Shown: positions 8,490 through 50,879 of the stretch, in pieces
How positions within the stretch are numbered: position 1 is the first letter of the stretch
Layout: each line of letters opens with the position of its first letter
NCBI RefSeq assembly: GCF_030253575.1
Contig: NC_080557.1
Span: forward strand, 46,404,501 to 46,468,500
Direction of reading: 5' to 3'
Length of the DNA stretch: 64,000 nt
Origin: Rhododendron vialii
Lineage: Eukaryota > Streptophyta > Magnoliopsida > Ericales > Ericaceae
Notes under the pieces: model-generated
Databases searched by the model: none
What the model was told of the DNA's origin: nothing
Seen by the model: only the letters and a program-made list of their open reading frames with translations
Translations under genes and position numbers: made by a program

Positions 8490-8497
8490 TATAAATA
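8490..8497 (+). promoter_or_regulatory. TATA box of peptide copy 1
   Basis: TATAAATA in the context gcatataaatagcc shared with the other copies. It lies 142 bp from the ATG, farther than in copies 2-8 (about 65-105 bp), because a ~50-bp leader segment (tgtaatccttcacaattcta...) is tandemly duplicated. The AGTCAA box seen upstream of other copies is missing here. Confidence 0.7.
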
Positions 8498-8631
8498 GCC
8501 CTTAGCTCTTTCAAACTGTAATCCTTCACAATTCTAGCTACCACCTCTTAATTTGCTCTTTCAAATTGTAATCCTTCACAATTCTACCACCTCTTAATTT
8601 GCTCTTTCAAATTAGTACTACTATAACAAAG

Positions 8632-8934
8632 ATGAGAACCAGAAACGTTGCCTTGGCCAGTTTAGCCGTACTTTTCCTTCTAACCATATGCAAACCACAT
8701 GAAGCAGCAAGAATCTTGGATGAAGAAGAAGAGGAGTTGATGAAGAGAGAGAGTTCGCTTTTACAGTCTCTGGATCATTCCCCTGTGGACCCCTCGCATC
8801 CAGATCCCGGGACCTTCATCCCTTCCAGCAGCACCCTCGGCCAGAAAGGCTTCGCCGGTCAGGCGATGCCGTTGCCGCCGCCCCCTCCGGCGTACCCGCA
8901 ACACACGGTTCGATTTGGCGTGGCATCCAATTAA
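8632..8934 (+). CDS. secreted peptide precursor, array copy 1 (one motif)
   Basis: 100 aa. The start ATG at 8632 is conserved in position in all copies (MRTRNVALASLAVLFLL...). A hydrophobic signal peptide spans residues 1-25, ending KPHEAA; an acidic linker follows (ILDEEEEELMKRES), then SLLQSL. One Pro-rich motif, PVDPSHPDPGTFIPSSS, is followed by the spacer TLGQKGFAGQ and the tail AMPLPPPPPAYPQHT...FGVASN. No cysteine occurs after the signal region. The layout (secretion signal, acidic propeptide, Pro/Ser/Thr-rich motif) fits a plant signalling-peptide precursor; function is inferred. The T-x-I-P core recalls CTNIP/SCREW peptides. Confidence 0.8.
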   Translation: MRTRNVALASLAVLFLLTICKPHEAARILDEEEEELMKRESSLLQSLDHSPVDPSHPDPGTFIPSSSTLGQKGFAGQAMPLPPPPPAYPQHTVRFGVASN

Positions 8935-9364
8935 TTGTATTCACAAAACCCATCAAAAACCAATGTTGCAAACAGATGCATTTTACCTTAGAAAAGTCAG
9001 AAAATTCAACTGTGATTATTGACTAGAATAAGACTGGTGCAAGTCAAAATTGTAGGCTTTAGAATTTCACCCCATTCATTATACATCTATTTGTTGAGTG
9101 TATAAATACATAGAGCTCTATCTGATGTATACGTAGAACATGGACAGGGCAAGAAGATATGCTTCTAGCTTGTGTTTTGGATTGGTTATGTTGATAAGGG
9201 AAGACAAAAGAAAGAGCAAATGGATTTCCCAAGTCTTTGTTTCTTGCTGTATTGTAGTTGCATGTCACTTTTCTTTTGTATTCAATGAATCAAGATTCAA
9301 GAGCAAATTACATTGTATCGATAATTGTGTATTTCAAATGTTATCTACGAGGCCTATGAAATGA

Positions 9365-10472
9365 CACTACAAGAAAAATGAACATTGGTGACGATAAAGT
9401 GGCAACGAAATTTAATTTCGTCACTAAATGAGTATATTTGTCGACGAAAAAATAAATTCGTCACTATTTTTACAACTTCTGTGACGAAATAATTTCATCA
9501 CTAATTATACCTGTTTAGCGACGAAAAAAATATTTTCGTCACCAAAAGTATCCATTTGCCGACGAAATACATTTTTCATCGCCAAAAGCTTAAAAATTGT
9601 GACGAAATTATTTTTCGTCACCAAAGATAATCATTTGGTGACAAAAATATATTTCGTCGCCAAATGAGACCAATTTAGTAACGAAATATTTTTTTCGTCA
9701 CCAAATGCTTAACTTCGGTGACGAAAAATAATTTCGTCACTATTTTAACGCTTTCAGCGACGAAAAATATATTTTGTCGTCAAATGGGTACCTTTCGTGA
9801 TGAAATTTATGAATTGTGCTTTGTCACTAAATATATTTCGGACATAACTCTTTACTAAAAACTCCGATTGAGATAATTCAAATTGGGTTTGAACAATAAC
9901 TCAATTGCCTACAACTTTCATGTTTATCAAAATTGTTAATTTTATTGTTTAAAGGTTCAAAATTACATTCGAAATACATTTTCATGTTAAACATATATGT
10001 TATATATTAGATATTTCAAATATTTATTGAAAAGTGTATGTGGTGCAGTTGGTCGGAGCTTGTGCGAAAAATTCAAGGGACTCGGATTCAAAACCCAACA
10101 GGAGCAAGAAAAAAGGATTTTTTTCTCATATGAAAACGTCTTTTGCAACGAAAAAATTCGTCACCAATTACTTATATTGGTGACGAAAATTTTCATCACT
10201 TGTGTGACCCATTGGTGACGAATTTTTTCGTCGTCAAATAGCACAATAAGCGAGGAAAAAAATTTCGTCACCAATTATTCATTTTTTGGTGACGAAATAT
10301 TTCGTCATCAAAAGACACTATAGGTGACGAAAAATAGATTTCGTCACCAGGTAGGAATCCTCGACAATCTTTAGCCGACAAATTTTTTTCGTCACCTATA
10401 TTATTTGTGACGAAAAACATACAATTTGTGACGATTTTCATTCGTCACCCAAGGTAATTTTTCTTGTAGTGT
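9365..10472. mobile_element. non-autonomous CACTA element
   Basis: Ends are CACTACAAGAAAAAT and ATTTTTCTTGTAGTG, a perfect inverted repeat. It is flanked by TGA on both sides (9362-9364 and 10473-10475), the 3-bp target duplication expected for CACTA/EnSpm elements. The interior is packed with subterminal repeats in both orientations (GTGACGAAA / TTTCGTCAC). No transposase frame is present. The related flank of copy 3 near 18.91 kb (atgaaatgaatgggaagaatca) is the paralogous empty site, so insertion postdates the duplication. Confidence 0.92.
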
Positions 10473-11712: not shown

Positions 11713-12564
11713 ATGAGAACTAGAAACGTTGCCTTAGCCATTTTAGTCGTACTTTTTCTTCCAACCATATTCAAACCACTTGAAGCAGCAATGGATGAAG
11801 AAGAGAGTTTGCCTTTACGGTCTCTGCAAAGGGGTCCTGTGACCCCCTCGGCTCCAGCTCCTGACACCTACATTCCTGCCAGCAGCAGGGCTCCTGTGAC
11901 CCCCTCGGGTCCAGCTCCTGGGACCTACATCCCTGCCAGCAGGGACGGATCCACTCAGGGGCACATGGGGGCATGTGCTCCCACTCGAAATTAAAATATT
12001 TTTAAAAAATATTTATGTATAAATTAGCATAAATATGAAAATGTGCTAATAAATAAACATACATACTTATATATATTCCGAAAATACACATAGAATTAGT
12101 TTTATGCTTAAATTTCAATATATGGTGCATTTATACTTGTTACTTTACGAGCTGTTAGTCTATTTGAAGCTATTTTTTCTTATTTTTTTGTTTTTAACTG
12201 TCTGAGAGAAATATTTTAAAATAAAGGCATTAAAAAAACTAGCTCTATCATTCTAAAATTTATTGATGTTCATTTAAAACATACTTTAAATTTTTGTCTG
12301 AGATTTTATGCTCATTTTTACCTATTTAACTTAAAGTATGCGTTATAAACTTTTGTAATTAGTAATGCATGCTTTAATTTTGTACGATCTTACTATGGTT
12401 TACTACAAAAAAAAATGAACTTTTACCATTATCATTAACAGGTGCCCCCACTAGGGTATATTTCTGGATCCGTCCCTGCCTGTCAGCGGCACCCTGGCCG
12501 GCCGTTGCCGCCCCCTCTGGCGTACCCGCAACACACGGTTCAATTTGGTGTGGCCAACGATTAA
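11713..12564 (+). pseudogene. secreted peptide precursor, array copy 2, split by a hAT MITE
   Basis: The ATG at 11713 opens MRTRNVALAILVVLFLPTIF, a signal peptide, then a short acidic linker (MDEEESLPLRSLQR) and two motifs, PVTPSAPAPDTYIPASS and PVTPSGPAPGTYIPAS, joined by a very short spacer. At 11940 a 539-bp MITE enters the coding sequence. Reading continues into the MITE for 17 codons (RDGSTQGHMG...) to a stop at 11992-11994, so the present ORF is 93 aa with both motifs but without the conserved tail. The displaced tail resumes after the MITE at 12479 and ends FGVAND-stop at 12564. The copy is either a pseudogene or a gene with a new C-terminus; transcript data are needed to decide. Confidence 0.8.
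11940..12478. mobile_element. hAT-type MITE inside peptide copy 2
   Basis: Terminal inverted repeats CAGGGACGGATCCA and TGGATCCGTCCCTG match perfectly. Flanks CCTGCCAG (11932-11939) and CCTGTCAG (12479-12486) form an 8-bp target duplication with one mismatch, as for hAT elements. The interior is AT-rich and has no transposase. Confidence 0.9.
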
Positions 12565-15660: not shown

Positions 15661-15671
15661 TGTATAGCTTT

Positions 15672-18156: not shown

Positions 18157-18537
18157 ATGAGAACTATAAACGTTGCCTCAGCCATTTTAGCTCTACTTTT
18201 TCTTCCAACCATATTCAAACCACATGAAGCAGCTAGATTCTTGGATGATGAAGAAGAAGGGTTGAGGAAGAGTGAGAGTTTGCTTTTACAGTCTCTGGCT
18301 CTGCAAAGGGTTCCTGTGACCCCCTCGCATCCAAGTCCCGACACCCACATCCCCGCCAGCATGCACCCTCGGCCAGAAAGGCTTTGCCGGCCATGCGATG
18401 CTGTTGCCGCCTCCGGTGTACCCACAACACACGGTTCATTTTGGTGTGGCCACAAATTAATTGTCCAAAAAACCCACCCAAAGGGCATTGACAATGTTGC
18501 AAGAGATACATTTACCTCAGAAGTCAGAAAATTCTAA
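18157..18537 (+). pseudogene. secreted peptide precursor, array copy 3, frameshifted after the motif
   Basis: The conserved ATG at 18157 opens MRTINVASAILALLFLPTIF. A signal peptide, linker (FLDDEEEGLRKSES) and one motif, PVTPSHPSPDTHIPAS, are intact. Then four extra bases (atgc within gccagcatgcaccctcggcc) shift the frame: the TLGQKGFAGQAMPLPPP tail is lost and a foreign Cys/His-rich tail runs to 18537. The nucleotides of the old tail are still present to about 18460. An upstream in-frame ATG at 18118 exists but is not conserved. If the motif alone is the active part, the gene could still work. Confidence 0.75.
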
Positions 18538-24161: not shown

Positions 24162-24169
24162 TATAAATA
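23986..24169 (+). promoter_or_regulatory. shared promoter block, copy 4
   Basis: TGACGTG at 23986-23992, AGTCAA at 24111-24116 and TATAAATA at 24162-24169, about 93 bp before the coding ATG. Confidence 0.6.
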
Positions 24170-24261
24170 GCCCCAAACTCCCTCCAAGTATTCTTCATAA
24201 TCTATATACCAACATCAGCAGCTCTTTAATTGCTTTCTCCAATTAGTATAGGCATAGCAAA

Positions 24262-24639
24262 ATGAGAACTATAAACGTTGCCTTAGCCATTTTAGCTCTA
24301 CTTTTTCTTCAAACCATATTCAAACCACATGAAGCAGCTAGAATCTTGCATGAACAAGAAGAAGAGTTTAAGAAGAGTGAGAGTTTGCTTTTACAGTCTC
24401 TGGCTCATACCCCTGTGGACCCCTCGCATCCAAGTCCCGGCACCTACATCCCCGCCAGCACCCTTGGCCAGAAAGGCTTTGCTGTGCAAAGGGCTCCTGT
24501 ACCCCCCTCGCAACCAAGTCCCGGCACCCACATCCCCGCCAGCACCCTCGGCCAGAAAGGCTTTGCTGGTCAAGCGATGCCGTTGCCACCTCCGGTGTAC
24601 CCACAACACACGGTTCAATTTGGTGTGGCCACAAATTAA
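24262..24639 (+). CDS. secreted peptide precursor, array copy 4 (two motifs)
   Basis: 125 aa. Signal peptide (MRTINVALAILALLFLQTIF, ending PHEAA), linker ILHEQEEEFKKSES, then SLLLQSL-like leader sequence. Two motifs, PVDPSHPSPGTYIPAS and PVPPSQPSPGTHIPAS, are each followed by TLGQKGFA. The first spacer ends VQRA, where Arg could mark a processing point; the second leads into the tail GQAMPLPPPVYPQHT...FGVATN. No cysteine follows the signal region. Apart from a few substitutions it is nearly identical to copy 5. Function is inferred as a secreted signalling-peptide precursor. Confidence 0.82.
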   Translation: MRTINVALAILALLFLQTIFKPHEAARILHEQEEEFKKSESLLLQSLAHTPVDPSHPSPGTYIPASTLGQKGFAVQRAPVPPSQPSPGTHIPASTLGQKGFAGQAMPLPPPVYPQHTVQFGVATN

Positions 24640-28206: not shown

Positions 28207-28639
28207 CCTTAATATCCTATCATTTAACGTGTAATTCCTTCTTAGTCAGTTCGTTGGGTTTGTTTGCAATGGAAATTGTCATTTAAGGGGAAAAGATGCA
28301 TCCATGTTAATGATGCACTTACCACACTGAATAATTTTCCCAGAGATCAGCGATCCCGACGTCTCATGATCCAACTTTATTCTTGCTTTATGTTTTTTCC
28401 TCCATTCCATTTTTATTGGGCCATTGGGCCATATGTAAAACATATTCATGGGTAAAAAAATGGGCCCTATAACAACACGTATACTAGGTGCTACTAAAAA
28501 GAAGTAGAATTAAGCTCTAGTTTTTTTTGGACATTTTTTGAGGCTTAAGGCTTGTGCCTCATGAACCTTAGCCCAGAGCCGGCCATATGAGTTTTCTGTC
28601 TCCTGCATTACATGCTTGCATGCCGTCATGTTCAAGGAA

Positions 28640-28816: not shown

Positions 28817-28892
28817 GCCCCAACTCCCTCCCAGTATTCTTCATAATCTATCAGCTCTCTAATTGCTTTCCCCAATTACTATAGCTAGCAAA

Positions 28893-29270
28893 ATGAGAAC
28901 TATAAACGTTGCCTTAGCCATTTTAGCTCTACTTTTTCTTCTAACCATATTCAAACCACATGAAGCAGCTAGAATCTTGCATGAACAAGAAGAAGAGTTC
29001 ATGAAGAGTGAGAGTTTGCTTTTACAGTCTCTGGCTCATACCCCTGTGGACCCCTCGCATCCAAGTCCCGGCACCTACATCCCCGCCAGCACCCTTGGCC
29101 AGAAAGGCTTTGCCGTGCAAAGGGCTCCTGTACGCCCCTCGCAACCAAGTCCCGGCACCCACATCCCCGCCAGCACCCTCGGCCAGAAAGGCTTTGCCGG
29201 TCAGGCGATGCCGTTGCCGCCTCCGGTGTACCCACAACACACGGTTCAATTTGGTGTGGCCACAAATTAA
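28893..29270 (+). CDS. secreted peptide precursor, array copy 5 (two motifs)
   Basis: 125 aa from the conserved ATG; longer readings need a TTG start. Signal peptide ending IFKPHEAA, linker ILHEQEEEFMKSES, motifs PVDPSHPSPGTYIPAS and PVRPSQPSPGTHIPAS, spacer TLGQKGFAVQRA and the standard tail ending FGVATN. The 3' flank also matches copy 4 closely (aaaaaccggtaccctacccgaagg), so copies 4 and 5 are a recent duplicate pair. Function is inferred as for copy 4. Confidence 0.82.
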   Translation: MRTINVALAILALLFLLTIFKPHEAARILHEQEEEFMKSESLLLQSLAHTPVDPSHPSPGTYIPASTLGQKGFAVQRAPVRPSQPSPGTHIPASTLGQKGFAGQAMPLPPPVYPQHTVQFGVATN

Positions 29271-30099: not shown

Positions 30100-31264
30100 T
30101 GTTACCCAAATTATGCAACCTAGAGGGGGGGTGAATAGGATTGCTAGTAATAATTACCAATAAAAATTTATCTCTAACAATATATGCAAACAATAAGTAT
30201 GCAATCAAAATAGAGAGATAGAGAGATAGAACCCGTTTATAGTGGTTCGGTCCGGATTTGTCCACGGTCCGGCCCTACTCCACTTCTCCTCAAGCAATTA
30301 CTTGAAGGTTAGACTAATCTTTAAAAGATTACAACTTGTAAGTCTTGCGGGTGCTTACAAGAACCGAATGCCTCTAGCTTTCCCGAGGAGCTAGCACAAC
30401 CGCAAGAATTTTCTCCGAAAACTTCTCAAAAACAATAACACCCAAATTCCAACCCGAATTTGGTCTTCTAAGCTTTCAAGTGTTTGACTCAAACACTCAC
30501 TTAGGAAATACAAGTATGTGAAGAAGGTATGAAAATTATCGCTCACGACTTGTACAAATTTTCTCTCAAGAATAATATGAAAGTGGAAGAACAATGAGAA
30601 TTTTTGGCTTTGATCTTTTGAGAATTTTCTCTTGCAATAATATGGAATGTTGTAGCTTGTGTGTGTACTCATTAATGAGTTCTTGATGCCTTATATAGCC
30701 ATCCATATGCTTCCTAGCCGTTGGAAACTAGCCGTTGGAACTAGCCGTTGGAAACTAGCCGTTGGAAACTAGCCGTTTGAAACTAGCCGTTGGAAACTAG
30801 CCGTTTGAAACTAGCCGTTTGAAACTAGCCGTTGGAAACTAGCCGTTGGAAACTAGCCGTTGGAAACTAGCCGTTTGAAACTAGCCGTTGGAAACTAGCC
30901 GTTTGAAACTAGCCGTTGGAAACTAGCCGTTAGATAGAGTGGTCATCCGGGTGGTCGTCCGGTTGTCACAGCTTTCTGTTCAGACAGCCGGCTTGTCAGC
31001 CGGTTCGTCAACCTGTGGCTCACAATTTCATCTAAATAAATCCGTTAAAGCATGTATTGAGCTCAATAAAGTCTTTGTAAATATAAATCATGAATCCAAG
31101 AGACTTTATGCTATATTTCAAGGTCACGAAAATATTTAGTTCGGGAATCGACTTTTCGATAATTTTGTATTTGCCGAATAAAAATATCATTGAATTAATC
31201 ATCAAAATAATTAATAGAGATGCATATAAATTTTCACAAATTATAATGCATACATTTTTCAACA
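30100..31264 (-). repeat. 3' LTR of the copia element
   Basis: 1165 bp. Same sequence as the 5' LTR except for one more 14-bp unit. Contains a TATA box on the minus strand (CTATATAAGG, 30688-30697). Confidence 0.93.
30714..30932 (-). repeat. tandem 14-bp MSA-like repeats in the 3' LTR
   Basis: Sixteen units of ctagccgttggaaa type. On the element's sense strand the unit is TTTCCAACGGCTAG; ten units match YCYAACGGYY, five have TTTCAAACGG and one is truncated. Confidence 0.85.
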
Positions 31265-31278
31265 ATCTCCCCCTTTTT
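31265..31278 (-). other. polypurine tract
   Basis: AAAAAGGGGGAGAT on the minus strand, directly adjoining the 3' LTR; primer for plus-strand DNA synthesis. Confidence 0.85.
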
Positions 31279-31550
31279 GATGATGACACAAAATGATAGT
31301 TTTTATTCAAGTAGGAGTTATGCCAATCTCCCCCTTAATACATGCACCAAAGCAGTTATCTATGATCAACGAGTAATAGCAATAATCATCAGATCATAGC
31401 AAGCAATTTTTTTAAATTTGCCCAAAATGGCAAGATAGATCAATTAAAACTTGGCTTTTTCTCCCCCTGTGACATCATAAAAAAAAACTAAAAAGAGAAA
31501 AACAATAGGGCCATGGTTCCAGCACCATGCCGCTCTTGCCCTGTAGCACT

Positions 31551-31823
31551 CTATCTTCGTTCATTGAGAGCTTGGCGTCCTTGATTTTCGTATTCTCGAA
31601 TAATGGCTGCTACAACGGCAGCTACAATGCCAATCCAATACCACAGAGTATCCACATTTACATTCCACCCGAACCATGGTGGTATTCTCATTGTAAGTAA
31701 CGCACACAGCAGAATGAAGATAAAGAGTTGCATCCAAATGGTTTGGATAAACAACCTGAACTCTGCTCGTTCGGCATCTCTTTCGTAAAACTCAAACGGT
31801 AACCCTTGCGGTATGTTTGCCAT
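31551..31823 (-). CDS. small two-helix membrane protein inside the copia 3' region
   Basis: 90 aa, starting MANIPQGLPFEFYERDAER. Two hydrophobic segments are visible: about residues 29-46 (TIWMQLFIFILLCALL) and 58-74 (DTLWYWIGIVAAVVAAII), joined by a short RIPPWFGWN loop, with a charged C-terminus (REYENQGRQALNERR). It lies between pol and the 3' LTR, in the position where Sireviruses can carry an extra or envelope-like ORF, but it is far shorter than the envelope-like proteins I know of. It could be a captured host gene fragment or a private accessory ORF. I do not recognise a family and assign no function. Confidence 0.5.
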   Translation of the reverse strand: MANIPQGLPFEFYERDAERAEFRLFIQTIWMQLFIFILLCALLTMRIPPWFGWNVNVDTLWYWIGIVAAVVAAIIREYENQGRQALNERR

Positions 31824-32333
31824 TGCTTGATGAGAGATTTAGGCCGAGAGAGAAGGAAAGATAGATAGATGAAGAGATAGAGAGAGTGTTGTTGAATTTA
31901 TAGAGTATGAGATTGCCGAATTGTTTGAAATGGTGCGCCGAATTGATTGAATTGCTGCGCCGAAAGAGAGATAATAGGGGATGCGGCACCGAATAGAGAT
32001 AGGATAGGGGATGCGGCGCCGAATAGGACAAGAATAGGGGAAGAAAATTGTGTTCGGGTGTTTATTGTTGTGTCCCCTTAATACATGCTCCCCCTAAAAG
32101 AGAGCTTTTTAAAGAATGCGAGGGGTATTACCGAGAATGATTATCCCTGCAAGCTTAGAGACAAGAAATTCATATCGGCGAAGTATATAAGAGACAATTT
32201 AAGCACTAAGCCATGAAGTTCATACAAACTAAGTGTAACAGACTTAATAAATCAGAGTTAGCAACGCAAAAGCTTGAATAAGTCTCAACCTCACGGTTGT
32301 CCGGTTGGACATCCGCTTGGACATCCGACTGAC

Positions 32334-32970
32334 TGTCACGACCCTGACCCGCCCCTTGAGGTCTTAATCATGACAAATGCCAGTGATTTCTAGCAGAGGG
32401 CTCCCAAAAGACAGATTTCCAAAACCCACGAAATTATCAGCATATAACAGATTTGTTCAAGACTCAAAATAAATGATCAAACTTGATTCTTGTACATCTA
32501 ACCAACACTTAAACATGTAAAGAAGGTAGGAGATCCCTACCTCGAGGGTTAGAAGCAAGCCCGAACATGGAGGAAACCTCAAAGTGCTCCGATCATGATT
32601 CTTCTTCGATCAATAGGAAGATCTCGTCGCGTAGAACAACTTTAGTACTTGGGATTTTTCCGAAATCTCATTCTAAGGCGATGAAATCGAAGAGAGAAGT
32701 TTGGACGAGAGGTGAGAAAGAGAGAGAGTCGGTCGAGGGAGTAGAGAGAGAGAAACGTGTGTGTGTCTGCCCGGAAAAGAAAAGAAATATATGTGGGGGA
32801 GAATTATCCCCTACACACACCTTCACTTATACACCCATGCATATTACACTTGCATCCCGAACTTCTAAATTCTAGTACATTCGACATCCGAACTCATTCT
32901 CCATTTTATATCACAACTCATGCCTTAATAAAACATAAAGAATTATGGAAATAAAATACGGGTCTCTACA
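32334..32970. mobile_element. solo LTR nested in the copia element
   Basis: 637 bp from TGTCACGACCCTGACC to GGGTCTCTACA, flanked by CTGAC on both sides (32329-32333, 32971-32975). No internal domain, so it is a recombination product of another LTR element; the superfamily is not determined. Its presence means a second insertion and LTR-LTR recombination after the copia element (or its parent) formed. Confidence 0.85.
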
Positions 32971-33202
32971 CTGACAAATGCAGGTTAAGTCCAGAAAACG
33001 TTTAAGAGGAGTAGCATTAAAGACCATAAAACTGTTTTTCTGCATACCAAACACAGGAAAATGAATCATATGATAAAATGTTTGGAGGGTGATTTCTTTA
33101 TCAAGATCATTTGTACTCTCCATCAAGTATGATATTTACGAATTCAATCAACTCAACATTGAATCCAAAAAAAAAACTTTTGACATCAAGAACACAACTT
33201 TT

Positions 33203-36200
33203 TCATAAATGATTAGACATGCCGAGTTCTCGTCGAATGAAACAAAATTGTTCTTCACCAAGGGGTTTTGTGAAAATGTCCGCCAATTGCTTGTCGGTAC
33301 TAATAAAGTTAAGTTCAATATCCCCTTTTTGAACATGATCTCTTATAAAATGATGTCTAATCTCAATATGTTTTGTTCGAGAATGTTGAATTGGATTCTT
33401 GGTTAAGCTAATTGCACTAGTATTATCACATTTAATAGGAATATGATCATATTGCAAATTGAAATCCTCCATTTGTTGTTTGATCCACAATATTTGGGCA
33501 CAACAACTTCCGGCCGCTACATATTCCGCCTCGGCGGTAGATAGAGCTACGGAATTTTGTTTCTTGCTATGCCAAGACACTAGAGAGTGCCCTAGAAATT
33601 GGCAAGTCCCACTTGTACTTTTACGATCAACTTTGAAACCTCCAAAATCCGCATCCGAATAACCAATTAAATCAAATGCAACTCCACGTGGATAAAACAA
33701 TCCTAAGTCATGAGAACCGGCAACATATTTAAAAATACGTTTAATAGCTTTTAAATGCGATTCTTTAGGACATGATTGAAATCTAGCACACATGCAAACA
33801 CTAAACATTATATCCGGTCTACTTGCAGTGAGATAAAGTAATGAGCCGATCATACCTCGATACATCTTTTCATTGACGGCCTTACCATTCTCATCTTTGT
33901 CTAGCTTAGTTGATGTGCTCATTGGTGTGCTCATTGGCTTTGATCCTTCCATGCCAAACTTCTTAATAAGTTCTTTCGCATACTTGGCTTGGTTGATTAG
34001 AATCCCCTCATTAGTTTGCTTGATTTGAAGTCCGAGGAAGAAGTTAAGCTCCCCCATCATACTCATTTCAAATTCACCTTGCATACACTTAGCAAACTCT
34101 TTGCACATATTATCATTAGTGGCACCAAAGACAATATCATCAACATATATTTGAATAATGAGCATATCTTTACCTTTGGCTTTAATGAAAAGAGTAGTAT
34201 CAATTTTTCCACGAGTAAAGCCATTGTCAAGCAAGAATGAACTAAGTCTATCATACCATGCACGTGGTGCTTGCTTCAAACCATATAGAGCTTTTGAGAG
34301 TTTAAAAACATGATCGGGGTATACATGATCTTCAAAGCCGGGAGGTTGTTTGACATAAACTTCCTCATTTATGAACCCATTCAAAAATGCACTTTTCACA
34401 TCCATTTGATAAAGCTTGAAATTTTTGAAAGATGCAAAGGCAAGCAATATGCGAATAGCCTCTAATCTAGCTACCGGTGCAAAAGTTTCTTCAAAATCAA
34501 TACCTTCTTCTTGATTATAACCTTGAGCAACAAGTCTAGCTTTATTCCTAACAATATTTCCGGATTCATCTAGCTTGTTACGAAAAACCCATTTAGTACC
34601 TATAATAGTGTGATCAAGAGGCTTAGGTACTAATGCCCAAACTTTATTCCTTTCAAATTGATTTAACTCATCTTGCATGGCCAAAATCCAATTTTCATCA
34701 TCTTGAGCTTCCGGAAAGTTTTTAGGCTCAATTTGAGAAACAAAAGCTTGATTTTCACAAAAATTTCTATGAGACGAGCGAGTGGTTACCCCTTTCGAAA
34801 CTTCTCCAAGAATCAAGTCCTTTGGATGGTTTTGCACGAATCTCCAATCCTTGGAAAGATCTTGGTTGTCTCCCATGGCATCTTGAGGTTGATTAATAAC
34901 TTCATCTTCTTTGATTTGAGAGCTTTCTACTTGAGTATCACCATCAACTTTTTCTTGAATTTTCAAGTCATGAATCTCATGTGTAATTTCTAAGTCATCA
35001 TTATCAACAACATCCTTAGTAGCACAAGGATTAGATTCATCAAAGGAAACGTGAATAGATTCTTCAACAAGATTAGTGCGCTTATTATAAATTCTATATG
35101 CTTTGCTAGTAAGAGAGTAACCAATAAAGATGCCTTCATCCGATTTTGAATCAAATTTACCCAAGTCATCTTTTCCATTGTTTAATACATAACATTTACA
35201 ACCGAAGGCATGAAAGTAATTAATGTTGGGTATTCTACCATTCCAAAGCTCATAAGGAGTTTTCTTGAGGATAGGCCTAATTAAAACTCGATTCAAAATA
35301 TAGCATGAGGTATTAACGGCTTCCGCCCAAAAATATTTTGGCAAAGAGTTTTCACAAAGCATAGTGCGGGCCATTTCTTCCAGAGTACGATTTTTTCTCT
35401 CTACTACTCCATTTTGTTGAGGAGTACGAGGTACGGAAAAGTTATGACCAATACCATGTTCATCACAAAACTTTTCATATAAAGAATTGTCAAGTTCTTT
35501 TCCATGATCCGTACGAATGTTAGAAATAACAAAGCCTTTTTCATTTTGAACTCTTCTACAAAGTTTAGTGAAATTAGGATAAGCCTCATTCTTATGAGCT
35601 AGGAACATCACCCATGTATATCTAGAGAAATCATCAACAACAACAAGACAATAATAGTTTCCACAAAGACTTGGAGAGCGAGTTGGTCCAAACAAATCCA
35701 TATGAAGTAATTGCAAAGGTCTAGTAGTTGAAACAACATTTTTGGACTTAAAAGAAACCTTGGTTTGTTTTCCTTGTTGGCAAGGACCACAAAGTCTATC
35801 TTTTTCAAATTTGATTTTAGGAAGACCTTTTACCAAATTTTTTCTAGAGAGTTTTGAAATAGCATCCATACTTGCATGTCCTAGGCGCCTATGCCAAAGC
35901 CAACTATTTTCACTCAAAGCGGAAAAACATTTTATATCACAATTACTTAAATCATTGAGATTAAAAACATATACATTTTCAAGTCTTTGTCCAACGAAGA
36001 GTGTCTTGTTGCTTTTGACATTTTCAATGATACATTTGGATTTTTCAAAGATAACACGATTTCCTCTATCACATAATTGACTTATGCTAAGAAGATTGTG
36101 TTTTAAACCACTAACAAGTAAAACATCTTCAATAATAGGAGAATTACCTATATCACCAATTCCTATGATTTTGCCTTTGTTGTTGTCTCCAAATGTGACA

Positions 36201-36253
36201 TGTCCACCATCTTTAGGCGAAAGAGAATTGAAAGCCCTCTTGTCACCGGTCAT
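33203..36253 (-). CDS. pol: copia Pol: integrase, reverse transcriptase, RNase H (with protease edge)
   Basis: 1016 codons from the ATG of [10 protein letters not shown]. The frame extends about 21 codons further up, through the protease motif [14 protein letters not shown], to a TAG at 36317-36319. GAG-pre-integrase with HRRLGHAS and a Cys pair (C..C) lies near residues 115-160. The integrase catalytic triad shows as [18 protein letters not shown] and [11 protein letters not shown]. Reverse transcriptase runs about 530-770 with the [11 protein letters not shown] active site near 706. RNase H runs about 860-990 with SDADFGG, STAEAEY and [13 protein letters not shown]. The end is [21 protein letters not shown]. 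There are no internal stops. The order integrase before reverse transcriptase is diagnostic for copia. Confidence 0.95.
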
Positions 36254-36329
36254 GTGTCTTGAACATCCACTATCAAGGTACCAACTTCCTTCCTTGAGAG
36301 AACTTTTGAAGCATACCTACAATAGCACA

Positions 36330-37976
36330 TCAATTCTTGACTTTTGGTACCCAAATCATCTTGGGTCCTTGAAGGTTAGCATTGATACGGTTCTTAGGAA
36401 CCCAAACCTTTTTTGCATTAGAAGATGAGTATCCTTTCATAGGACATGTAGGAGAAATATGACCAATTTTACCACAATAATGACATGTCAATTTAGAATG
36501 GTTAGAAGGAGGAACATCTTTTCCAAAAAGATTTTTGTGTTGAGTGGGATTATAACCAATTCCGGCCTTGTGAAAAGAAACCATTTGTTTTCCAAGAAGA
36601 ATGTCTAAACTTTCTTTTCCATTAGTGAGTTTTGAAAGAGAATTAGTTAAATCGTCAATTTGTTTTTCTAAAGATTCGTTTTTGGAAGTATCCTTCAAAT
36701 ACTCTTTTTCTTTTGCCAAAGAGGTTCTTAAACTTTCATTTTCTTCCTCCAAAATATCTTTCTCTTCAATTAAATCATCCATTTCTAGTGAGAGATCTTT
36801 AGCAACCTTTTTAAGAAATTTGTTTTTAGAAACAACTTTTTCAAATTCTACTTTCAACTCTTTATAGGCAATAAACAATTCATCAAAGGAATAGGATGAG
36901 TCGAGATCTACCTCGTTTTCTTCGATGGCCATGAAACACAAGTTAGCGACCTCTTGTTGCTCATCGTCCTCATCGGAGCTACTATCGTCACTATTGTCCC
37001 ATGTGGCCATCATAGCTCTCCTTTTGTCCTTCTTTGAATATTTTTTGGCATATGGACATTCACTTTTGATGTGGCCGGGCTTCTTGCACTCGTAGCAAAT
37101 GATTGGATCCTTTTTGCTACTTTCTTCTTTGCCTCCATCTTTTCTTGAAAATCCTCTACCTTTGCGAGATGCTCTATTTTTGAGGAGTTTCTTGAACGTT
37201 TTTGTGATGAGCGCCATTTCATCATCCTCACTTTCGTTGCTTGAATCCTCCTTGCTTTTTGATTTGCTTGTTGTACTTTTGAAGGCAAGATCCTTAACTT
37301 TCTTCTCTTTTTCACCCTTGAGGTTGTGATGCATTTCCTCCGTCATGAGAGATCCCATGAGCTTGTCCATCGTGTATGTTGAGAAATCTTTGGATTGTAG
37401 GATGATGGAGGTGGTAGTGTCCCAATTGGTTGGCATGGAACGGAGCACCTTCCTTGTCATTTCGGATTGACTGTAAATCTTTCCAAGAGCTTTTAAACCG
37501 TTAGTAATACTAGCAAATCTAGCAAACATTTGAGATATAGATTCATCCGGTTTCATTTTGAAGAGCTCATAGCTATGCACAAGAATATCAATTTTGGACT
37601 CCTTAACTTGACTATCTCCTTCATGTGACATTTCTAACTTATCCCATATTTCTTTAGCCGATTCACATGCGGAGACACAATCATATTCATTGGGAGTAAT
37701 AGCACAAAAAAGAAGGTTCATAGCTCTATAGTTCTTTTCTATTGAAGCCTTTTCCAAATGACTCCACTCATAATCTGGTTTAGGCATAGTCTCTTCTCCA
37801 ACTTTCTTAGTAGGAATAATGGGACCATTTTTGATAATTTTCCATAGATCATAATCCGTGGATTGAATAAAGATCATCATTCTATTTTTCCAATGAGAGT
37901 AATTTTCTCCGGTGAACAAGGGAGGTCTATTGGACGATTGACCTTCGATACAAGAAACATTACTAGTGGTTGCCAT
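36330..37976 (-). CDS. gag: copia Gag polyprotein with two zinc knuckles
   Basis: 548 aa from an ATG at 37976 (MATTSNVSCIEGQSSNRPPL), about 45 bases after the primer-binding site. A UBN2/gag-like region (FTGENYSHWKNRMMIFIQ, ..LWDKLEMSHEGD..) is followed by a Lys/Ser/Glu-rich stretch. The first CCHC knuckle is CYECKKPGHIKSEC (about residue 292), then a coiled-coil-like acidic/leucine region, and a second knuckle CHYCGKIGHISPTC (about residue 495). It ends IWVPKVKN-stop at 36330-36332. Two widely spaced knuckles with a coiled coil between them are seen in Sirevirus Gag proteins. Gag and Pol are in different frames. Confidence 0.92.
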   Translation of the reverse strand: MATTSNVSCIEGQSSNRPPLFTGENYSHWKNRMMIFIQSTDYDLWKIIKNGPIIPTKKVGEETMPKPDYEWSHLEKASIEKNYRAMNLLFCAITPNEYDCVSACESAKEIWDKLEMSHEGDSQVKESKIDILVHSYELFKMKPDESISQMFARFASITNGLKALGKIYSQSEMTRKVLRSMPTNWDTTTSIILQSKDFSTYTMDKLMGSLMTEEMHHNLKGEKEKKVKDLAFKSTTSKSKSKEDSSNESEDDEMALITKTFKKLLKNRASRKGRGFSRKDGGKEESSKKDPIICYECKKPGHIKSECPYAKKYSKKDKRRAMMATWDNSDDSSSDEDDEQQEVANLCFMAIEENEVDLDSSYSFDELFIAYKELKVEFEKVVSKNKFLKKVAKDLSLEMDDLIEEKDILEEENESLRTSLAKEKEYLKDTSKNESLEKQIDDLTNSLSKLTNGKESLDILLGKQMVSFHKAGIGYNPTQHKNLFGKDVPPSNHSKLTCHYCGKIGHISPTCPMKGYSSSNAKKVWVPKNRINANLQGPKMIWVPKVKN

Positions 37977-38020
37977 GGATCTTAACTCTTAGATGGTTAA
38001 ATCTACAAACAAGAGCCGAG

Positions 38021-38032
38021 GCTCTGATACCA
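38021..38032 (-). other. primer-binding site (initiator tRNA-Met)
   Basis: TGGTATCAGAGC on the minus strand, two bases from the 5' LTR end. This is the classical plant copia site for the 3' end of tRNA-iMet. Confidence 0.92.
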
Positions 38033-38623
38033 ATTGTTACCCAAATTATGCAACCTAGAGGGGGGGTGAATAGGATTGCTAGTAATAATTACCAATAAAA
38101 ATTTATCTCTAACAATATATGCAAACAATAAGTATGCAATCAAAATAGAGAGATAGAGAGATAGAACCCGTTTATAGTGGTTCGGTCCGGATTTGTCCAC
38201 GGTCCGGCCCTACTCCACTTCTCCTCAAGCAATTACTTGAAGGTTAGACTAATCTTTAAAAGATTACAACTTGTAAGTCTTGCGGGTGCTTACAAGAACC
38301 GAATGCCTCTAGCTTTCCCGAGGAGCTAGCACAACCGCAAGAATTTTCTCCGAAAACTTCTCAAAAACAATAACACCCAAATTCCAACCCGAATTTGGTC
38401 TTCTAAGCTTTCAAGTGTTTGACTCAAACACTCACTTAGGAAATACAAGTATGTGAAGAAGGTATGAAAATTATCGCTCACGACTTGTACAAATTTTCTC
38501 TCAAGAATAATATGAAAGTGGAAGAACAATGAGAATTTTTGGCTTTGATCTTTTGAGAATTTTCTCTTGCAATAATATGGAATGTTGTAGCTTGTGTGTG
38601 TACTCATTAATGAGTTCTTGATG

Positions 38624-38633
38624 CCTTATATAG
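38624..38633 (-). promoter_or_regulatory. LTR TATA box
   Basis: CTATATAAGG on the minus strand, immediately downstream of the repeat block; transcription would run toward gag. Confidence 0.7.
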
Positions 38634-38648
38634 CCATCCATATGCTTC

Positions 38649-38853
38649 CTAGCCGTTGGAAACTAGCCGTTGGAACTAGCCGTTGGAAACTAGCCGTTGG
38701 AAACTAGCCGTTTGAAACTAGCCGTTGGAAACTAGCCGTTTGAAACTAGCCGTTTGAAACTAGCCGTTGGAAACTAGCCGTTGGAAACTAGCCGTTTGAA
38801 ACTAGCCGTTGGAAACTAGCCGTTTGAAACTAGCCGTTGGAAACTAGCCGTTA
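38649..38853 (-). promoter_or_regulatory. 15 tandem MSA-like elements in U3 of the 5' LTR
   Basis: Fifteen 14-bp units reading TTTCCAACGGCTAG (nine) or TTTCAAACGGCTAG (five) plus one partial unit on the sense strand. TCCAACGGCT fits YCYAACGGYY, the M-phase-specific activator consensus recognised by plant MYB3R factors. Position just upstream of the TATA box fits an enhancer; activity is inferred. Confidence 0.65.
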
Positions 38854-39284
38854 GATAGAGTGGTCATCCGGGTGGTCGTCCGGTTGTCACAGCTTTCTGT
38901 TCAGACAGCCGGCTTGTCAGCCGGTTCGTCAACCTGTGGCTCACAATTTCATCTAAATAAATCCGTTAAAGCATGTATTGAGCTCAATAAAGTCTTTGTA
39001 AATATAAATCATGAATCCAAGAGACTTTATGCTATATTTCAAGGTCACGAAAATATTTAGTTCGGGAATCGACTTTTCGATAATTTTGTATTTGCCGAAT
39101 AAAAATATCATTGAATTAATCATCAAAATAATTAATAGAGATGCATATAAATTTTCACAAATTATAATGCATACATTTTTCAACATCCACAATCTTATTC
39201 AGCCCAACTGATAATTCATTAAGGGAACAAATTACTAAACAAATACATCAAGGGAACAAATAATCAATCTCTATTTTTTGCAAG

Positions 39285-40125: not shown

Positions 40126-40140
40126 AGATGCCTTGTCTCG

Positions 40141-42569: not shown

Positions 42570-42577
42570 TATAAATA
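42397..42577 (+). promoter_or_regulatory. shared promoter block, copy 6
   Basis: TGACGTG at 42397-42403, AGTCAA at 42521-42526 and TATAAATA at 42570-42577, 93 bp before the ATG. Confidence 0.6.
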
Positions 42578-42662
42578 GATCCAACTCCCTCCCAGTACTT
42601 TTCATAATCGATATACCAACATCAGCAGCTCTTTAATTGCTTTCACCAATTACTATAGCAAA

Positions 42663-43292
42663 ATGAGAACTATAAACGTTGCCTTAGCCATTTTAGCTCT
42701 ACTTTTTCTTCTAACCATATTCAAACCACATGAAGCAGCTAGAATCTTGCATGCAGAAGGAGAAGAGTTTATGAAGATTGAGAGTTTGCTTTTACAGTCT
42801 CTGGCTCATACCCCTGTGGACCCCTCGCATCCGAGTCCCGACACCAACATCCCCGCCGGCACCCTCGGCCAGAAAGGCTTTGCCGTGCAAAGGACTCCAG
42901 TGATCCCCTCGCATCCAAGTCCCGGCACCCACATCCCCGCCAGCACCCTCGGCCAAAAAGGCTTTGCCGTGGAAAGGACTCCAGTGACCCCCTCGCATCC
43001 AAGTCCCGGCACCAACATCCCCGCCAGCACCATCGGCCAAAAAGGATTTGCCGTGCAAAGGACTCCTGTGACCCCCTCGCATCCAAGTCCCGGCACCCAC
43101 ATCCCCGCCAGCACCCTCGGCCAGAAAGGCTTTGCCGTGCAAAGGACTCCAGTGACCCCCTCGCATCCAAGTCCCGGCACCCACATCCCCGCCAGCTCCC
43201 TCGGCCAGAAAGGCTTTGCCGGTCAGGCGATGCCGTTGCCGCCTCTGGTGTACCCACAACAAACGGTTCAATTTGGTGTGGCCACCAATTAA
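42663..43292 (+). CDS. secreted peptide precursor, array copy 6 (five motifs)
   Basis: 209 aa. Signal peptide (MRTINVALAILALLFLLTIF, ending PHEAA) and linker ILHAEGEEFMKIES, then five tandem 28-residue (84-bp) units: PVDPSHPSPDTNIPAG, PVIPSHPSPGTHIPAS, PVTPSHPSPGTNIPAS, PVTPSHPSPGTHIPAS and PVTPSHPSPGTHIPAS. They are separated by (T/S)(L/I)GQKGFAV(Q/E)RT; the tail is AMPLPPLVYPQQT...FGVATN. The near-identical units indicate recent unequal crossing-over or slippage. Arg at each spacer end gives a regular possible cleavage point, so one precursor could release several nearly identical peptides, as in multi-peptide precursors such as those of some CEP genes. Processing is inferred. Confidence 0.85.
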   Translation: MRTINVALAILALLFLLTIFKPHEAARILHAEGEEFMKIESLLLQSLAHTPVDPSHPSPDTNIPAGTLGQKGFAVQRTPVIPSHPSPGTHIPASTLGQKGFAVERTPVTPSHPSPGTNIPASTIGQKGFAVQRTPVTPSHPSPGTHIPASTLGQKGFAVQRTPVTPSHPSPGTHIPASSLGQKGFAGQAMPLPPLVYPQQTVQFGVATN

Positions 43293-45662: not shown

Positions 45663-45670
45663 TATAAATA
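45519..45670 (+). promoter_or_regulatory. shared promoter block, copy 7
   Basis: TGACGTG at 45519-45525, AGTCAA at 45615-45620 and TATAAATA at 45663-45670, 99 bp before the ATG. Confidence 0.6.
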
Positions 45671-45761
45671 GATCCAACTCCCTCCCAGTACTTTTCATAA
45701 TCTACCAACATCACCAGCTAGCTCTTTAATTGCTTTCTCCAATTAGTATAGGCATAGCAAA

Positions 45762-46442
45762 ATGAGAACTATAAACGTTGCCTTAGCCATTTTAGCTCTA
45801 CTTTTTCTTCTAACCATATTCAAACCACATGAAGCAGCTAGAATCTTGCATGAACAAGAAGAAGAGTTTATGAAGAGTGAGAGTTTGCTTTTACAGTCTC
45901 TGGATCATACCCCTGTGGACCCCTCGCATCCGAGTCCCGACACCCACATCTCCGCCAGCACCCTCGGCCAGAAAGGCTTTGCTGTGCAAAGGACTACTGT
46001 GACCCCCTCACATCCAAGTCCCGGCACCAACATCCCCGCTAGCACCCTCGGCCAGAAAGGCTTTGCCGTGCAAAGGACTCCAGTGACCCCCTCGCATCCA
46101 AGTCCCGGCACCCACATCCCCGCTAGCACCCTCGGCCAGAAAGGCTTCGCCGTGCAAAGGACTCCAGTGACTCCCTCGCATCCAAGTCCCGACACCCACA
46201 TCCCCGCCAACACTCTTGTGACCCCCTCGCATCCAAGTCCCGACACCAATATCCCCGCCAGCACCCTCGGCCAGAAAGGCTTTGCCCTGCAAAGGGCTCC
46301 TGTTACCCCCTCGCATCCAAGTCCCGACACCCACATCACCGCCAGCACCCTTGGCCAGAAAGGCTTTGCCGGTCAGGCGATGCCATTGCCACCTCCGGTT
46401 TACCCACAACAAACGGTTCAATTTGGTGTGGCCACCAATTAA
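45762..46442 (+). CDS. secreted peptide precursor, array copy 7 (six motifs)
   Basis: 226 aa, the longest copy. The signal peptide is identical to that of copy 6; linker ILHEQEEEFMKSES. Six motif units: PVDPSHPSPDTHISAS, TVTPSHPSPGTNIPAS, PVTPSHPSPGTHIPAS, PVTPSHPSPDTHIPAN, VTPSHPSPDTNIPAS and PVTPSHPSPDTHITAS. The spacer between units 4 and 5 is shortened to TL, an in-frame deletion of GQKGFAVQR and part of the next motif. The others are TLGQKGFA(V/L)QR. Tail GQAMPLPPPVYPQQT...FGVATN. Variation at the G/D and P/S/T positions of the core suggests either diversification of released peptides or relaxed constraint on some units. Confidence 0.85.
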   Translation: MRTINVALAILALLFLLTIFKPHEAARILHEQEEEFMKSESLLLQSLDHTPVDPSHPSPDTHISASTLGQKGFAVQRTTVTPSHPSPGTNIPASTLGQKGFAVQRTPVTPSHPSPGTHIPASTLGQKGFAVQRTPVTPSHPSPDTHIPANTLVTPSHPSPDTNIPASTLGQKGFALQRAPVTPSHPSPDTHITASTLGQKGFAGQAMPLPPPVYPQQTVQFGVATN

Positions 46443-47469
46443 TTTGTACACAAAACCCAGCCAAAACCAATGTTACAAGAGATTCATTTACTTTTGAAGT
46501 CAGAGAATTCAACTGTGATTATTGACTAGAATAAGACTGGTGCAAGTCAAAATTGTAGGCTTTAGTATTTCACTCCATTCATTATACGTACCTCTATTTG
46601 TTGTGTGTATAAATACATAGAGCTCTGAAAAAGAACATGGACAGGGCAACAAGATATGCTTCTGGTTTGCGTTTGGACTATGTTGATTAGCAAAGAATAA
46701 TAAGAGCAAACTAATGATTTCCCAAGTTTTTGTTTCCTATGTTGTATTCTTTTTTTGACAATACCTATATGGTATTCTTGTTGTTACTTTTCTTTTGTAT
46801 TTGTTAGATTTTTTGGAGAGTTCCAACTTAAAACTAATTGGCAATAAGCTAGTGGAGTAAATTACAAATTATAATAACCAAGTTTGGGTGGCTTAAATGA
46901 GCAATATGGAATAAAGTCTAATAGTATATGTTAAATCAAGATGATAGAGCAAATTACATCGTGATCTTTTGAAATATTTTATATTTGTGGTTTTGTATCG
47001 ATAACTCTACACTTCAGACGACATTCTCTACGAGGCCTATGAGATGAACGGGGCGGATCATTGCCGGGTATCCAGAATAAGGGCAACTTTAAGAGTTTAG
47101 AAGAGTATGGAGGATTAGAGTATGACGAGGAGCTTACCCCCATATTGTGAGGCTGCAAATCCTTGTAATTTTGTTGTTATGTTGGAAATTTCTAATAATT
47201 CTTGTAGTCATTCATTCTATCGCCGCTTTTGGCCCGTAGATCATTACTGTGTTATTATTATTATTATTATTGTTATCATTATTAGCAGTAGAAGAATACA
47301 AATACCTGAATTACATAAAACATAAGTCCACAATTATACTAAGCTCAACAGATAGTTCATTAAGGGAACAAATTACTAAGCAAATAGATCAAGGGAACAA
47401 ATAATCAATCTCAGTTTTTTGCAAAGATTGACTCTCTTTGACCTCCAGTACTATAGAAGTATACAAAGG

Positions 47470-47732: not shown

Positions 47733-47756
47733 ATACAAAGGTGGCAACTAAGCTTA

Positions 47757-47997: not shown

Positions 47998-50545
47998 AGT
48001 TAATTTTGTTCGACAATTACTAGTTAGATGCCTTGTCTAGTGGGGAAAGAAAAAGAGTAGAAAAGTAATCCAATTTTAACTAAGACAATTAACGCTACAA
48101 CCTCATACATAAACGAGGAGAGTCACTCCACATCCATCTTCATGAGCGTGAGCGTGAGCGTTTGCGTTGACTCTTCTCCTTGGGTGGGGGGTGGTTTTTT
48201 AGAGTTTTTCAAAAGGTCCAGAGTCACCGCACGTCTATTGGGGCCTATTTCAGACCCTACAGAAAAATACCCATAAATTTTAAGATAATATTTTATAGAG
48301 CCCTGTAAAAAATCAACTCCAACGGATATCCGTAGGTATGTCTTTTTGAATTTGTAGTGAAACTCCCTACGAATTCAAGAAACATACCTACCGATATCCG
48401 TTGGAGCTGATTTCTTATAAGACCTCATAAAATATTATTTTAAAATTTATAAATATTTTTTTTTATTTTTATAGGGCCCGAAATGGACCTCAATAGGCGT
48501 GTGGTAGCCTACCTTGCGCTGGACGTAGGATTGTCGTTTTACAATTGCCAGTTGGGTTGAGCTGATCGGCTGAGCTAGCTATCAGCTTCTCCTTTACGCA
48601 GTCTGCTCTTTGCTTGATAGAAGGGCATGATGAAATATATATATATATGCTACGAGCACAGATGAAAGTGCACGAATTCTGCCATACATATATGTTTTTG
48701 AAACCGTTCAATGCGTGTGGGCTCCACGTGCGTCGAACGATTTCAAATTAACACAAATGTGTCCAGATCTTTGCACTTTTGTCTTTGCTCATAGCATTGC
48801 TCGATGAAAAATACTACCCGCAAAATTTTCAGAGGAAAGTTCATATTCCATCTCATTCTGTTTGTCCATTTTTTTTTACTTTCTAATGTTGCAAATTGTT
48901 TGTCGATTTTGAACTATCGAAAACGAAATCGTAGAAAAACACCTTGTCATCACTCTTCTAAAGAATTGAAGTGACAAGTGCAACTGAAATTAAATGCCAA
49001 TTTTTTGAAAAGTTTAATTACAACTTTTAATTATTGCTAGTATCTTTGTCTTATTAATTAATAAGTTGGATTTTTTCAAACTACACGGAGGGAGTAGCGT
49101 TTTCCTTTAGCGTCACTTTCTACTACTTTTTCGCCAATTAATTAGTCCGGTGGACGATTTTTCTAGGAAAACAAAAGAATATTTACAGTATTTATTTACC
49201 TTGTAAAAGTCAATTTTGGAGAGGTAGGAATGCGTTTACTCTGTTTTTTCTAACAACTAAGCCTTCTTGTTTGAATTAATAGTATTTATTTTCCATTGAA
49301 TGGAATGAGGAATCCAATTCCGCGGATAATATTTCACGCGAGAGACTTGTGCATTACCCAAATTGTCCCCCTAAAGTCGGACAGGGATTAGATATTGCAT
49401 TTGCATGGCAATCAGACTTTGCAACAAACCCTTTACACGCCTATATACTCTGCAACCAAGACTTCAAAGTTCAAAGTTTACAGATCAAAAAAAGAGACTT
49501 CAAAGTTCAAACATTCAAAAAAAAAAAAAAAAAACATTTAGAAGAAGATCAACCATTCAACAAGATTCACCCCCTTGTAACAGGGGCCGACGAAGGGGGC
49601 GGAGTGGGTGAAACGATAAGTGTTGGACACCGGGTCAGGCAAGGCATGGCACGACATATGTTTATCACCGGACTAGGCAGGGCATGGCATGGCATGACAT
49701 GTGCTTGCCACCAAAATCTTAGAACAAGAATTTATATTTACTCCATTTCATTTTTCTCTCTTTGAACTTGAAAATCCAAGCCATCCAACCAAAACCAAGG
49801 CGAGTGCTGCACGTTGTAGTTAAGATAGATTTGTCCCCGTTGCGGTTCTTACGGTTTACATGGGCATCTATCTCTCAGCAATACTTGATCGAGCGCACCA
49901 CAGAAGCAGCACTACAATCAATGGGTCTGTCGAACCAAACTTGTGTTTGTACTCTCTCAAATGAAAAATCTCTGACTCAATGAAGGCATTCGAAAATCAA
50001 CCCATCCTAAAATGAATAAAGGATGCAATATAGATAGACTAACTGAAGACTTTCTTAATAGTCACAAGAGAAGAGACACATCTATTCATAAAAATAAAAA
50101 ATAAAAAAACATCCGTCTACGGTGAACAAGCGTCGCCAAACACAAGACTCCAAATCTGAGTCAATTTACCTCTGCACCCAAAACAAAATACTTATACTCC
50201 ATTCTAAAAGTATTTGCAAAGACAGTGAACAAACACAGGTCATCAAAAGGACCTCGGGTAGCGCGCGCAGAGAGAGAGAGAGAGTGCGGTTTCATTTTCT
50301 ATTTTGACGTCCCCACCTTGCATGCTGCAGTCATGTTCAAGGAAATAGAGGAATACGTGTTTACAAAAAGGTTGAAGAAATGGAAGTCTCAGATTAAAAA
50401 TTAGAAAAACTTTGCGACCCATTCAATTTCTGAACCCCATGTTTAATCCAATTAACGAGTCAACAGTCAAAATCCCCTTCCAACAAATTTTAAAAAAAAA
50501 AAACACGTAAAAACTCCAAGTCCTACCCCTTGATATCTTGCACCC

Positions 50546-50553
50546 TATAAATA
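50546..50553 (+). promoter_or_regulatory. TATA box of peptide copy 8
   Basis: TATAAATA in caccctataaatacccc, 67 bp before the ATG. AGTCAA lies at 50465-50470; a TGACGTG box is not seen at the expected place. Confidence 0.65.
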
Positions 50554-50612
50554 CCCCAGGCTCCCCTGCATGAATTCCTCAACTCTTTATTTGCTTTCCT
50601 ATAACAAACAAG

Positions 50613-50879
50613 ATGAAACCCATAAACAAATCTTTGGCAATTCTAGCCCTCCTGTTTCTTCTAAGCATGTTCAAACCACATGAAGCTGCTAGAGTCTTAA
50701 GTGAAGAAAACCTGAGTTTACAGTCTCTGAGGGCTGATGTCCCCCCGTCGGCAGGAAGTGGGGGGACGCACATACCACATACTAGTACCCTCGGCCAGAA
50801 AGGCTTTGCCGGTCATGCTATGCCGCCGCCGCCGCCGCTGCCGCAACTCATGGTTCCAGTTGGTGTCGCCACAAGTTGA
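50613..50879 (+). CDS. secreted peptide precursor, array copy 8 (divergent, one motif)
   Basis: 88 aa. Signal peptide MKPINKSLAILALLFLLSMF ending KPHEAA, short linker RVLSEENLSLQSLRA, then a single motif DVPPSAGSGGTHIPHTS, spacer TLGQKGFAGHA and tail MPPPPPLPQLMVPVGVATS. It is the most diverged and simplest member, and lies at the array edge next to the bHLH gene. Its leader, T-H-I-P core and tail confirm homology. The VPPS...G.THIP form looks closest to known single-copy phytocytokine precursors, so this copy may resemble the ancestral state. A (GA)n run lies upstream at about 50268-50284. Confidence 0.82.
   Translation: MKPINKSLAILALLFLLSMFKPHEAARVLSEENLSLQSLRADVPPSAGSGGTHIPHTSTLGQKGFAGHAMPPPPPLPQLMVPVGVATS

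Follow-up and report, generated by a model that had tools for sequence, protein, structure and literature searches.

A tandem array of candidate peptide hormone genes was analyzed in Rhododendron vialii. The window, that is, the whole 64,000-nucleotide stretch under analysis, spans positions 46,404,501 to 46,468,500 of contig NC_080557.1 (C1:46404501-46468500 in the 532.6-Mb assembly of 13 contigs that was searched). Eight genes (g1 to g8), all on the forward strand, were located at 8632-50879 of the window (Table 1). In the complete precursors, a signal-like N-terminus is followed by an acidic linker, then LQSL, the motif PVxPSxPSPGTxIPAS in one to six copies, and a tail. The N-terminus of most complete genes reads MRT[IR]NVALAILALLFL...KPHEAARIL, and the tail of the complete genes reads LGQKGFAGQAMPLPPP..YPQ.TVxFGVATN. 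An earlier reading made from the sequence alone (the sequence-only reading) had described eight same-strand genes with this common layout, and the description was confirmed, including location and strand. The same reading counted six open genes, which is correct for the copies that carry the tail as well as the motif (g1 and g4 to g8, 6 of 8); the reading frames of g2 and g3 stop without the tail.

Table 1. Array genes and insertions in the window. Coordinates of g1 to g8 begin at the ATG; P numbers denote compared proteins.
Feature	Position	Strand	Remark
g1, complete precursor, 100 aa, one motif and tail	8632..8934	+	92% identity to R. griersonianum P0003
g2, two motifs, frame enters insertion, no tail at its end	11713..11994	+	
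Insertion in g2, 539 bp, putatively hAT-like	11940..12478	.	
g2 tail, displaced and shortened, PLPPPLAYPQHTVQFGVAND	12501..12564	+	
g3, one motif; tail at 18353-18460 in a different frame	18157..18537	+	
g4, complete precursor, 125 aa, two motifs	24262..24639	+	
g5, complete precursor, 125 aa, two motifs; protein 97.6% identical to g4	28893..29270	+	
Copia long terminal repeat (LTR) retrotransposon separating g5 from g6	30100..39185	-	gag and pol domains, frames open
g6, complete precursor, 209 aa, five motifs	42663..43292	+	
g7, complete precursor, 226 aa, six motifs, five QKGFA modules	45762..46442	+	
g8, complete divergent paralogue, 88 aa, one motif	50613..50879	+	

The eight genes hold 20 motif copies in total. 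In g4 to g7, the motif and the spacer LGQKGFAVQR form a 28-residue repeat unit. The array expanded by duplicating units together with their intergenic spacers: 40922-43863 and 43988-47044 are 86.5% identical over 3.1 kb, and a second duplicated block (23941-24887 and 28594-29521) is 89.7% identical. When the copies were compared with one another by tblastn, E values ranged from about 1e-9 (g2-g8) to 1e-121 (g6-g7), which, together with the duplicated spacers, excludes a chance resemblance. A TATA[AT]A box lies 67 to 142 bases upstream of the ATG in all eight copies. The most divergent copy is g8 (MKPINKSLAILALLFL; motif VPPSAGSGGTHIP), which clustered with Vaccinium P0023 and Rhododendron P0010 in the tree described below. 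No further copy was found within the window by tblastn with all eight genes, apart from the displaced g2 tail; weak matches at 3868-4005 (E 0.05-0.2) and 32730-32780 (E 0.7) were taken for chance matches to proline-rich sequence. Elsewhere in the genome, one extra family copy, whose tail is out of frame, was found at C1:42332580-42332985, about 4 Mb from the array.

Three protein searches were performed, giving 59 matches (E ≤ 1, 3762 candidates), 224 matches, the best 120 of which were used (E ≤ 0.01, 2535 candidates), and 66 matches (E ≤ 0.01, 7992 candidates scored). In total, 219 proteins were compared, comprising 120 canonical relatives and 99 others, some of the latter being fragments. 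The nearest named proteins to the window genes were from Rhododendron. Annotated relatives occur in R. griersonianum, R. williamsianum, R. molle, and R. simsii, with chromosome 1 locus tags in the last two, and R. simsii P0174 is a single predicted protein with five motifs. The Ericales genera with relatives were Rhododendron, Vaccinium, Actinidia, Camellia, Sarracenia, and Bertholletia. Beyond the Ericales, the window profile matched cysteine-free proteins of the Fagales (Carpinus P0019, Castanea P0044, Lithocarpus P0045, and Juglans P0185) as well as proteins of Davidia, Cephalotus, and soybean that display CTNIP or CTYIP literally and have both cysteines. This precursor search, which had been proposed with the sequence-only reading, thus identified CTNIP precursors as the best kin.

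CTNIP/SCREW peptides (CTNIP1-5 in Arabidopsis) and their receptor HSL3/NUT (AT5G25930) are a recently described angiosperm stress-signaling pair, for which a cysteine pair is reported to be essential. When five window proteins were compared with five canonical CTNIP proteins by hhalign, they aligned end to end (probability 99.3, E 4e-20, 94 columns). Both groups have small precursors in which R[IV]L follows the signal peptide, and they share LQSL-GPV-PS-P..xTxIP, FAG, and YP...V.FGVATN, the last being present in many canonical relatives; Davidia P0032 (LQSLQKGPVTPSDPSGCTNIPGGGGTSCPIKEMNFAGDALARGTAHPHLTVPFGVATN) illustrates this kinship. The GPV.PS.P..xTxIP motif region was homologous to that of canonical members by hhalign, alignment, and trees. 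The window N-terminus is hydrophobic and corresponds to that of canonical members, as judged from the alignment. A genome search with a canonical CTNIP query recovered the window genes (E 4e-5 to 0.1). Among Protein Data Bank (PDB) chains of at least 20 residues, 9w1s_C was matched by Davidia P0032 (E 1.4e-5) and by a mixed profile of 18 proteins (E 9.5e-7). PDB entries 9w1s and 9wum contain the AT5G25930 protein too, which is HSL3 (PMC9715534), the reported receptor of CTNIP (PMC9191895) and also named as the SCREW receptor (PMC13056886). Taken together, these comparisons make it almost certain that the array genes are related to CTNIP/SCREW precursors. The lineage-specific tandem expansion of secreted peptide precursors proposed in the sequence-only reading, which named no family, is supported, and it has stress-signaling kin; the suggested role in defense or stress is consistent with this sequence kinship. 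The label "scarcely known type" does not hold, because the parent family has been published (PMC9191895).

The proline/serine-rich repeats might also suggest a structural wall protein or another peptide family (HypSys, IDA, PIP, or CEP). HypSys precursors are secreted and yield several proline-rich peptides each; the window precursors resemble them in their multi-peptide proline-rich layout, and PPSAPN resembles IDA. The C-terminal endings of IDA/IDL, PIP, CEP, and CLE peptides are GxGH, GH, or HN, which were not seen in the window units. On inspection, the window proteins had no extensin SPPPP blocks and no GxGH or RHN ending. HypSys is reported to be confined to the Solanaceae (PMC13157962), and IDA/IDL, PIP, CEP, and CLE have been grouped with CTNIP as proline-rich peptides with a PSGP-like core (PMC11331138). 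No Pfam family reached the cut-off in seven window proteins (g5 left out) and ten relatives, so that the homology to a wall protein, which the sequence-only reading had named as evidence against itself, did not appear at that threshold. PF27884.1 is a precomputed label of P0025, P0177, and some canonical relatives; P0025 was unmatched in the Pfam scan. With CTNIP precursors as the best sequence kin, an origin in a wall protein or one of these other families is highly improbable.

The window genes differ from CTNIP/SCREW genes in lacking the cysteine pair, in often carrying the motif two to six times with QKGFA spacers, and in forming a tandem array. Among the matches listed, two cysteines are 9 to 11 residues apart in 117 of the 120 canonical relatives; the other three also have two cysteines, at a spacing of 12 or 14. 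Such a pair was present in 1 of the 99 other proteins compared (P0194), and a single motif cysteine is kept in Quercus P0046 and Carya P0181. In the window motifs, the first-cysteine position is occupied by G or D and the second cysteine is gone. The published two-cysteine filter would therefore discard such a branch. The possibility that these are ordinary CTNIP/SCREW genes, signaling through HSL3 exactly as in Arabidopsis, agrees with the similar precursor layout and motif and with the HSL3-like genes of this genome. Given the absent pair and the reported loss of receptor binding by CTNIP4 without its cysteines, we consider it very unlikely.

A tree was built on 77 columns, with the two cysteine columns excluded, from 21 canonical and 28 cysteine-free sequences hand-picked from the 120 and 99 proteins plus five window genes; the Castanea/Lithocarpus type was not in this set. 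Twenty-seven of the 28 cysteine-free sequences formed one group separate from the 21 canonical CTNIPs, with a support of 99/99. With the Populus sequence removed, the same split was obtained from the N-terminal columns alone (93/85, 47 columns) and from the motif-to-FAG columns (99/92, 30 columns). A single clade of all 28 cysteine-free sequences was not rejected (p 0.29). The group comprised Ericales and two named Fagales sequences (Carpinus P0019 and Carya P0181). Because canonical genes are also present in R. simsii, Actinidia, Camellia, and Carya, the simplest reading of this unrooted tree of few columns would be a CTNIP duplication predating the Ericales-Fagales split.

Selection on the precursor parts was estimated from the ratio of nonsynonymous to synonymous differences per site (pN/pS), pooled over g1 and g4 to g7 with 95% codon bootstrap intervals. 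These figures are rough because the pairs are non-independent and gene conversion is likely. The ratio was 0.12 for the tail (0.00-0.33), 0.12 for the ten spacers (0.02-0.47), and 0.33 for the signal peptide (0.07-1.58). When g8, g2, and g3 were included in a wider codon set, the parts ranked in the same order: the pooled ratio of the tail was 0.28 over six genes including g8, that of the N-terminal part was 0.67, and that of 18 motif units was 0.71. Roughly, then, tail and QKGFA spacers are the most strongly constrained parts, whereas constraint on the motif is not clear. This argues against the simplest view, in which the hormone is the motif by itself. The active product could instead be the QKGFA module or the C-terminal tail (GFAGQAMPLPPP..YPQHTVQFGVATN), with the motif repeats serving only as spacers. 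Such a product would suit the constraint pattern and the occurrence of the YP...V.FGVATN tail in the canonical precursors of Davidia, Cephalotus, and soybean. However, it is the motif that is common to the bioactive Arabidopsis peptide and the HSL3-entry peptides, and it is the motif that was multiplied while the tail stayed single. We therefore regard this alternative as quite unlikely.

Several results weigh against a functional signaling branch. The cysteine pair, which served as the filter for the published confident set, occurs in none of the window motif units; it is reported to be essential, with CTNIP4 C58S/C68S losing receptor binding (PMC9191895). The tree is short (77 columns), unrooted, and based on a hand-chosen set, and Populus P0037 fell outside the cysteine-free group on a long branch. 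The profile of the five window proteins alone did not match 9w1s_C significantly (E 0.81), ranking below an unrelated viral chain (0.46). Two of the eight array copies and the sole copy outside it are broken. The motif pN/pS was 0.73 (95% 0.31-1.59; 16 units), not clearly below 1, and that of the linker was 1.32 (0.39 to no upper limit). A ratio near 1 across the signal peptide and motif had been named in the sequence-only reading as evidence against it; neither part is clearly below 1, whereas the tail and spacers are. The broken copies (g2, g3, and that at C1:42.33 Mb), the motif and linker ratios, and the reported need for the cysteines would also be expected of decaying duplicates, in a tandem family that lost its function along with the cysteines and is merely expanding and breaking. 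However, decay would not readily explain the low upper limits for the tail and spacers, the six complete copies, or a cysteine-free group that covers Ericales and Fagales, and we consider it unlikely. On balance, the array probably encodes signaling prohormones of a sister branch of CTNIP/SCREW that has multiple copies and no cysteine pair, and a working signaling role for its products is somewhat favored on the sequence evidence.

Canonical CTNIP genes are retained in the same genome on C4 and C5, and the canonical gene found here shares 98% identity with R. simsii P0140. At C4:37021267-37034810 (loci L009 and L016), a canonical two-cysteine CTNIP gene is accompanied by short open reading frames (ORFs) that end in ...SGSNPGTNIP and ...SGSNPSTYIPGGK and have neither cysteines nor a tail. 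These ORFs, which read PSGSNPSTYIPGGK and PSGSNPGTNIP, represent a separate cysteine loss. A third nearby match, at C4:37030869, contains a stop. The second two-cysteine CTNIP-like gene lies at C5:34831025-34831231 (L010; RGPVTPSGSNPCTYIPGGTRGRC). Leucine-rich-repeat genes were observed 30 to 170 kb from it, at C5:34.86-35.0 Mb. The idea that they form a CTNIP-linked receptor cluster was dropped because L053, the only one read, looks on inspection like a receptor-like protein.

For receptors, the genome was searched with an HSL3 ectodomain stretch that was verified letter by letter against 9wum_A. Three tandem HSL3-like genes (L076 to L078) were found at C11:19628140-19773376, with 53 to 54% identity and 375 to 389 bits to the query, versus 43 to 44% and 254 bits for the next-best genes, which are those ranked at the top with a HAESA query. 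The three are 88 to 90% identical to one another. Two of them reach the kinase domain; the L076 frame stops after the membrane segment. In the reverse search with L077, AT5G25930 was the top match (649 versus 410 bits). As candidates for HSL3, L027 and L036 were rejected by PDB ranking, and L028, L054, L057 to L061, L064, and L075 were rejected on inspection only. Rhodes et al. reported that HSL3 is expanded in Poaceae with no clear CTNIP there (PMC9191895), which provides a parallel for receptor duplication beside diverged or lost ligands.

For the sister branch favored here, the following course may be proposed. The signal peptide would route the precursor into the secretory pathway. Cleavage would occur in the linker, near the R-[IV]-L that follows the signal peptide, and also at the LGQKGFAVQR spacers, which are basic. 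The R of R-[IV]-L is invariant in 18 aligned proteins, and in RALF23 a subtilase is reported to cut at RRIL (PMC13157962). Each precursor would release one to six short proline/serine-rich peptides resembling PVTPSHPSPGTHIPAS, to which the QKGFA module might remain attached. Homology suggests that the peptides would act extracellularly through a leucine-rich-repeat receptor kinase from the HAESA/HSL clade, the likeliest being those encoded by the three HSL3-like genes, with a SERK co-receptor. The HSL3-like receptors of this genome are a possible target, although we would not call them the expected one. A broader scenario is more tentative and rather doubtful: a CTNIP duplication before the Ericales-Fagales split would have led to cysteine-free multi-copy prohormones, read by duplicated HSL3-like receptors as new agonists or as competitive CTNIP/SCREW antagonists, in stomatal and stress control. 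The QK module was observed to end in FAGHN in P0015, P0019 (Carpinus), and P0173. The ending HN is the C-terminus of IDA-type ligands, and the FAGHN end might bear on receptor choice.

The parent hormone family is known; what is new here is the cysteine-free multi-copy branch together with a tripled HSL3-like receptor in one genome. In the literature searched, which lay outside bioRxiv and most subscription papers, there was no account of the cysteine-free branch and no paper joining CTNIP with Rhododendron. If the proposal is true, a cysteine-free branch beside canonical genes and a tripled receptor would provide a natural test of HSL3-type recognition, and a plant prohormone would be seen multiplying its copies through internal repeats. 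The case also illustrates that defining a family by two cysteines can overlook a branch.

Several other features were observed in the window. The insertion in g2 has terminal inverted repeats of 14 bp, is flanked by an 8-bp repeat (7/8 identical), and was tentatively classified as hAT-like on these marks. The copia element between g5 and g6 is young-looking; its LTRs (30100-31264 and 38035-39185) are 98.8% identical, with a TCCAC flanking repeat. Antisense ORFs of up to 197 aa over the repeat genes, for example at 42769-43362 (-), were taken as by-products of codon make-up. Just past the array, a MYC-like transcription factor of 498 aa with bHLH-MYC_N and HLH domains is encoded at 52281-53774 (-). 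An F-box/Kelch protein of 336 aa is encoded at 3812-4819 (+), with an F-box score slightly below the Pfam cut-off.

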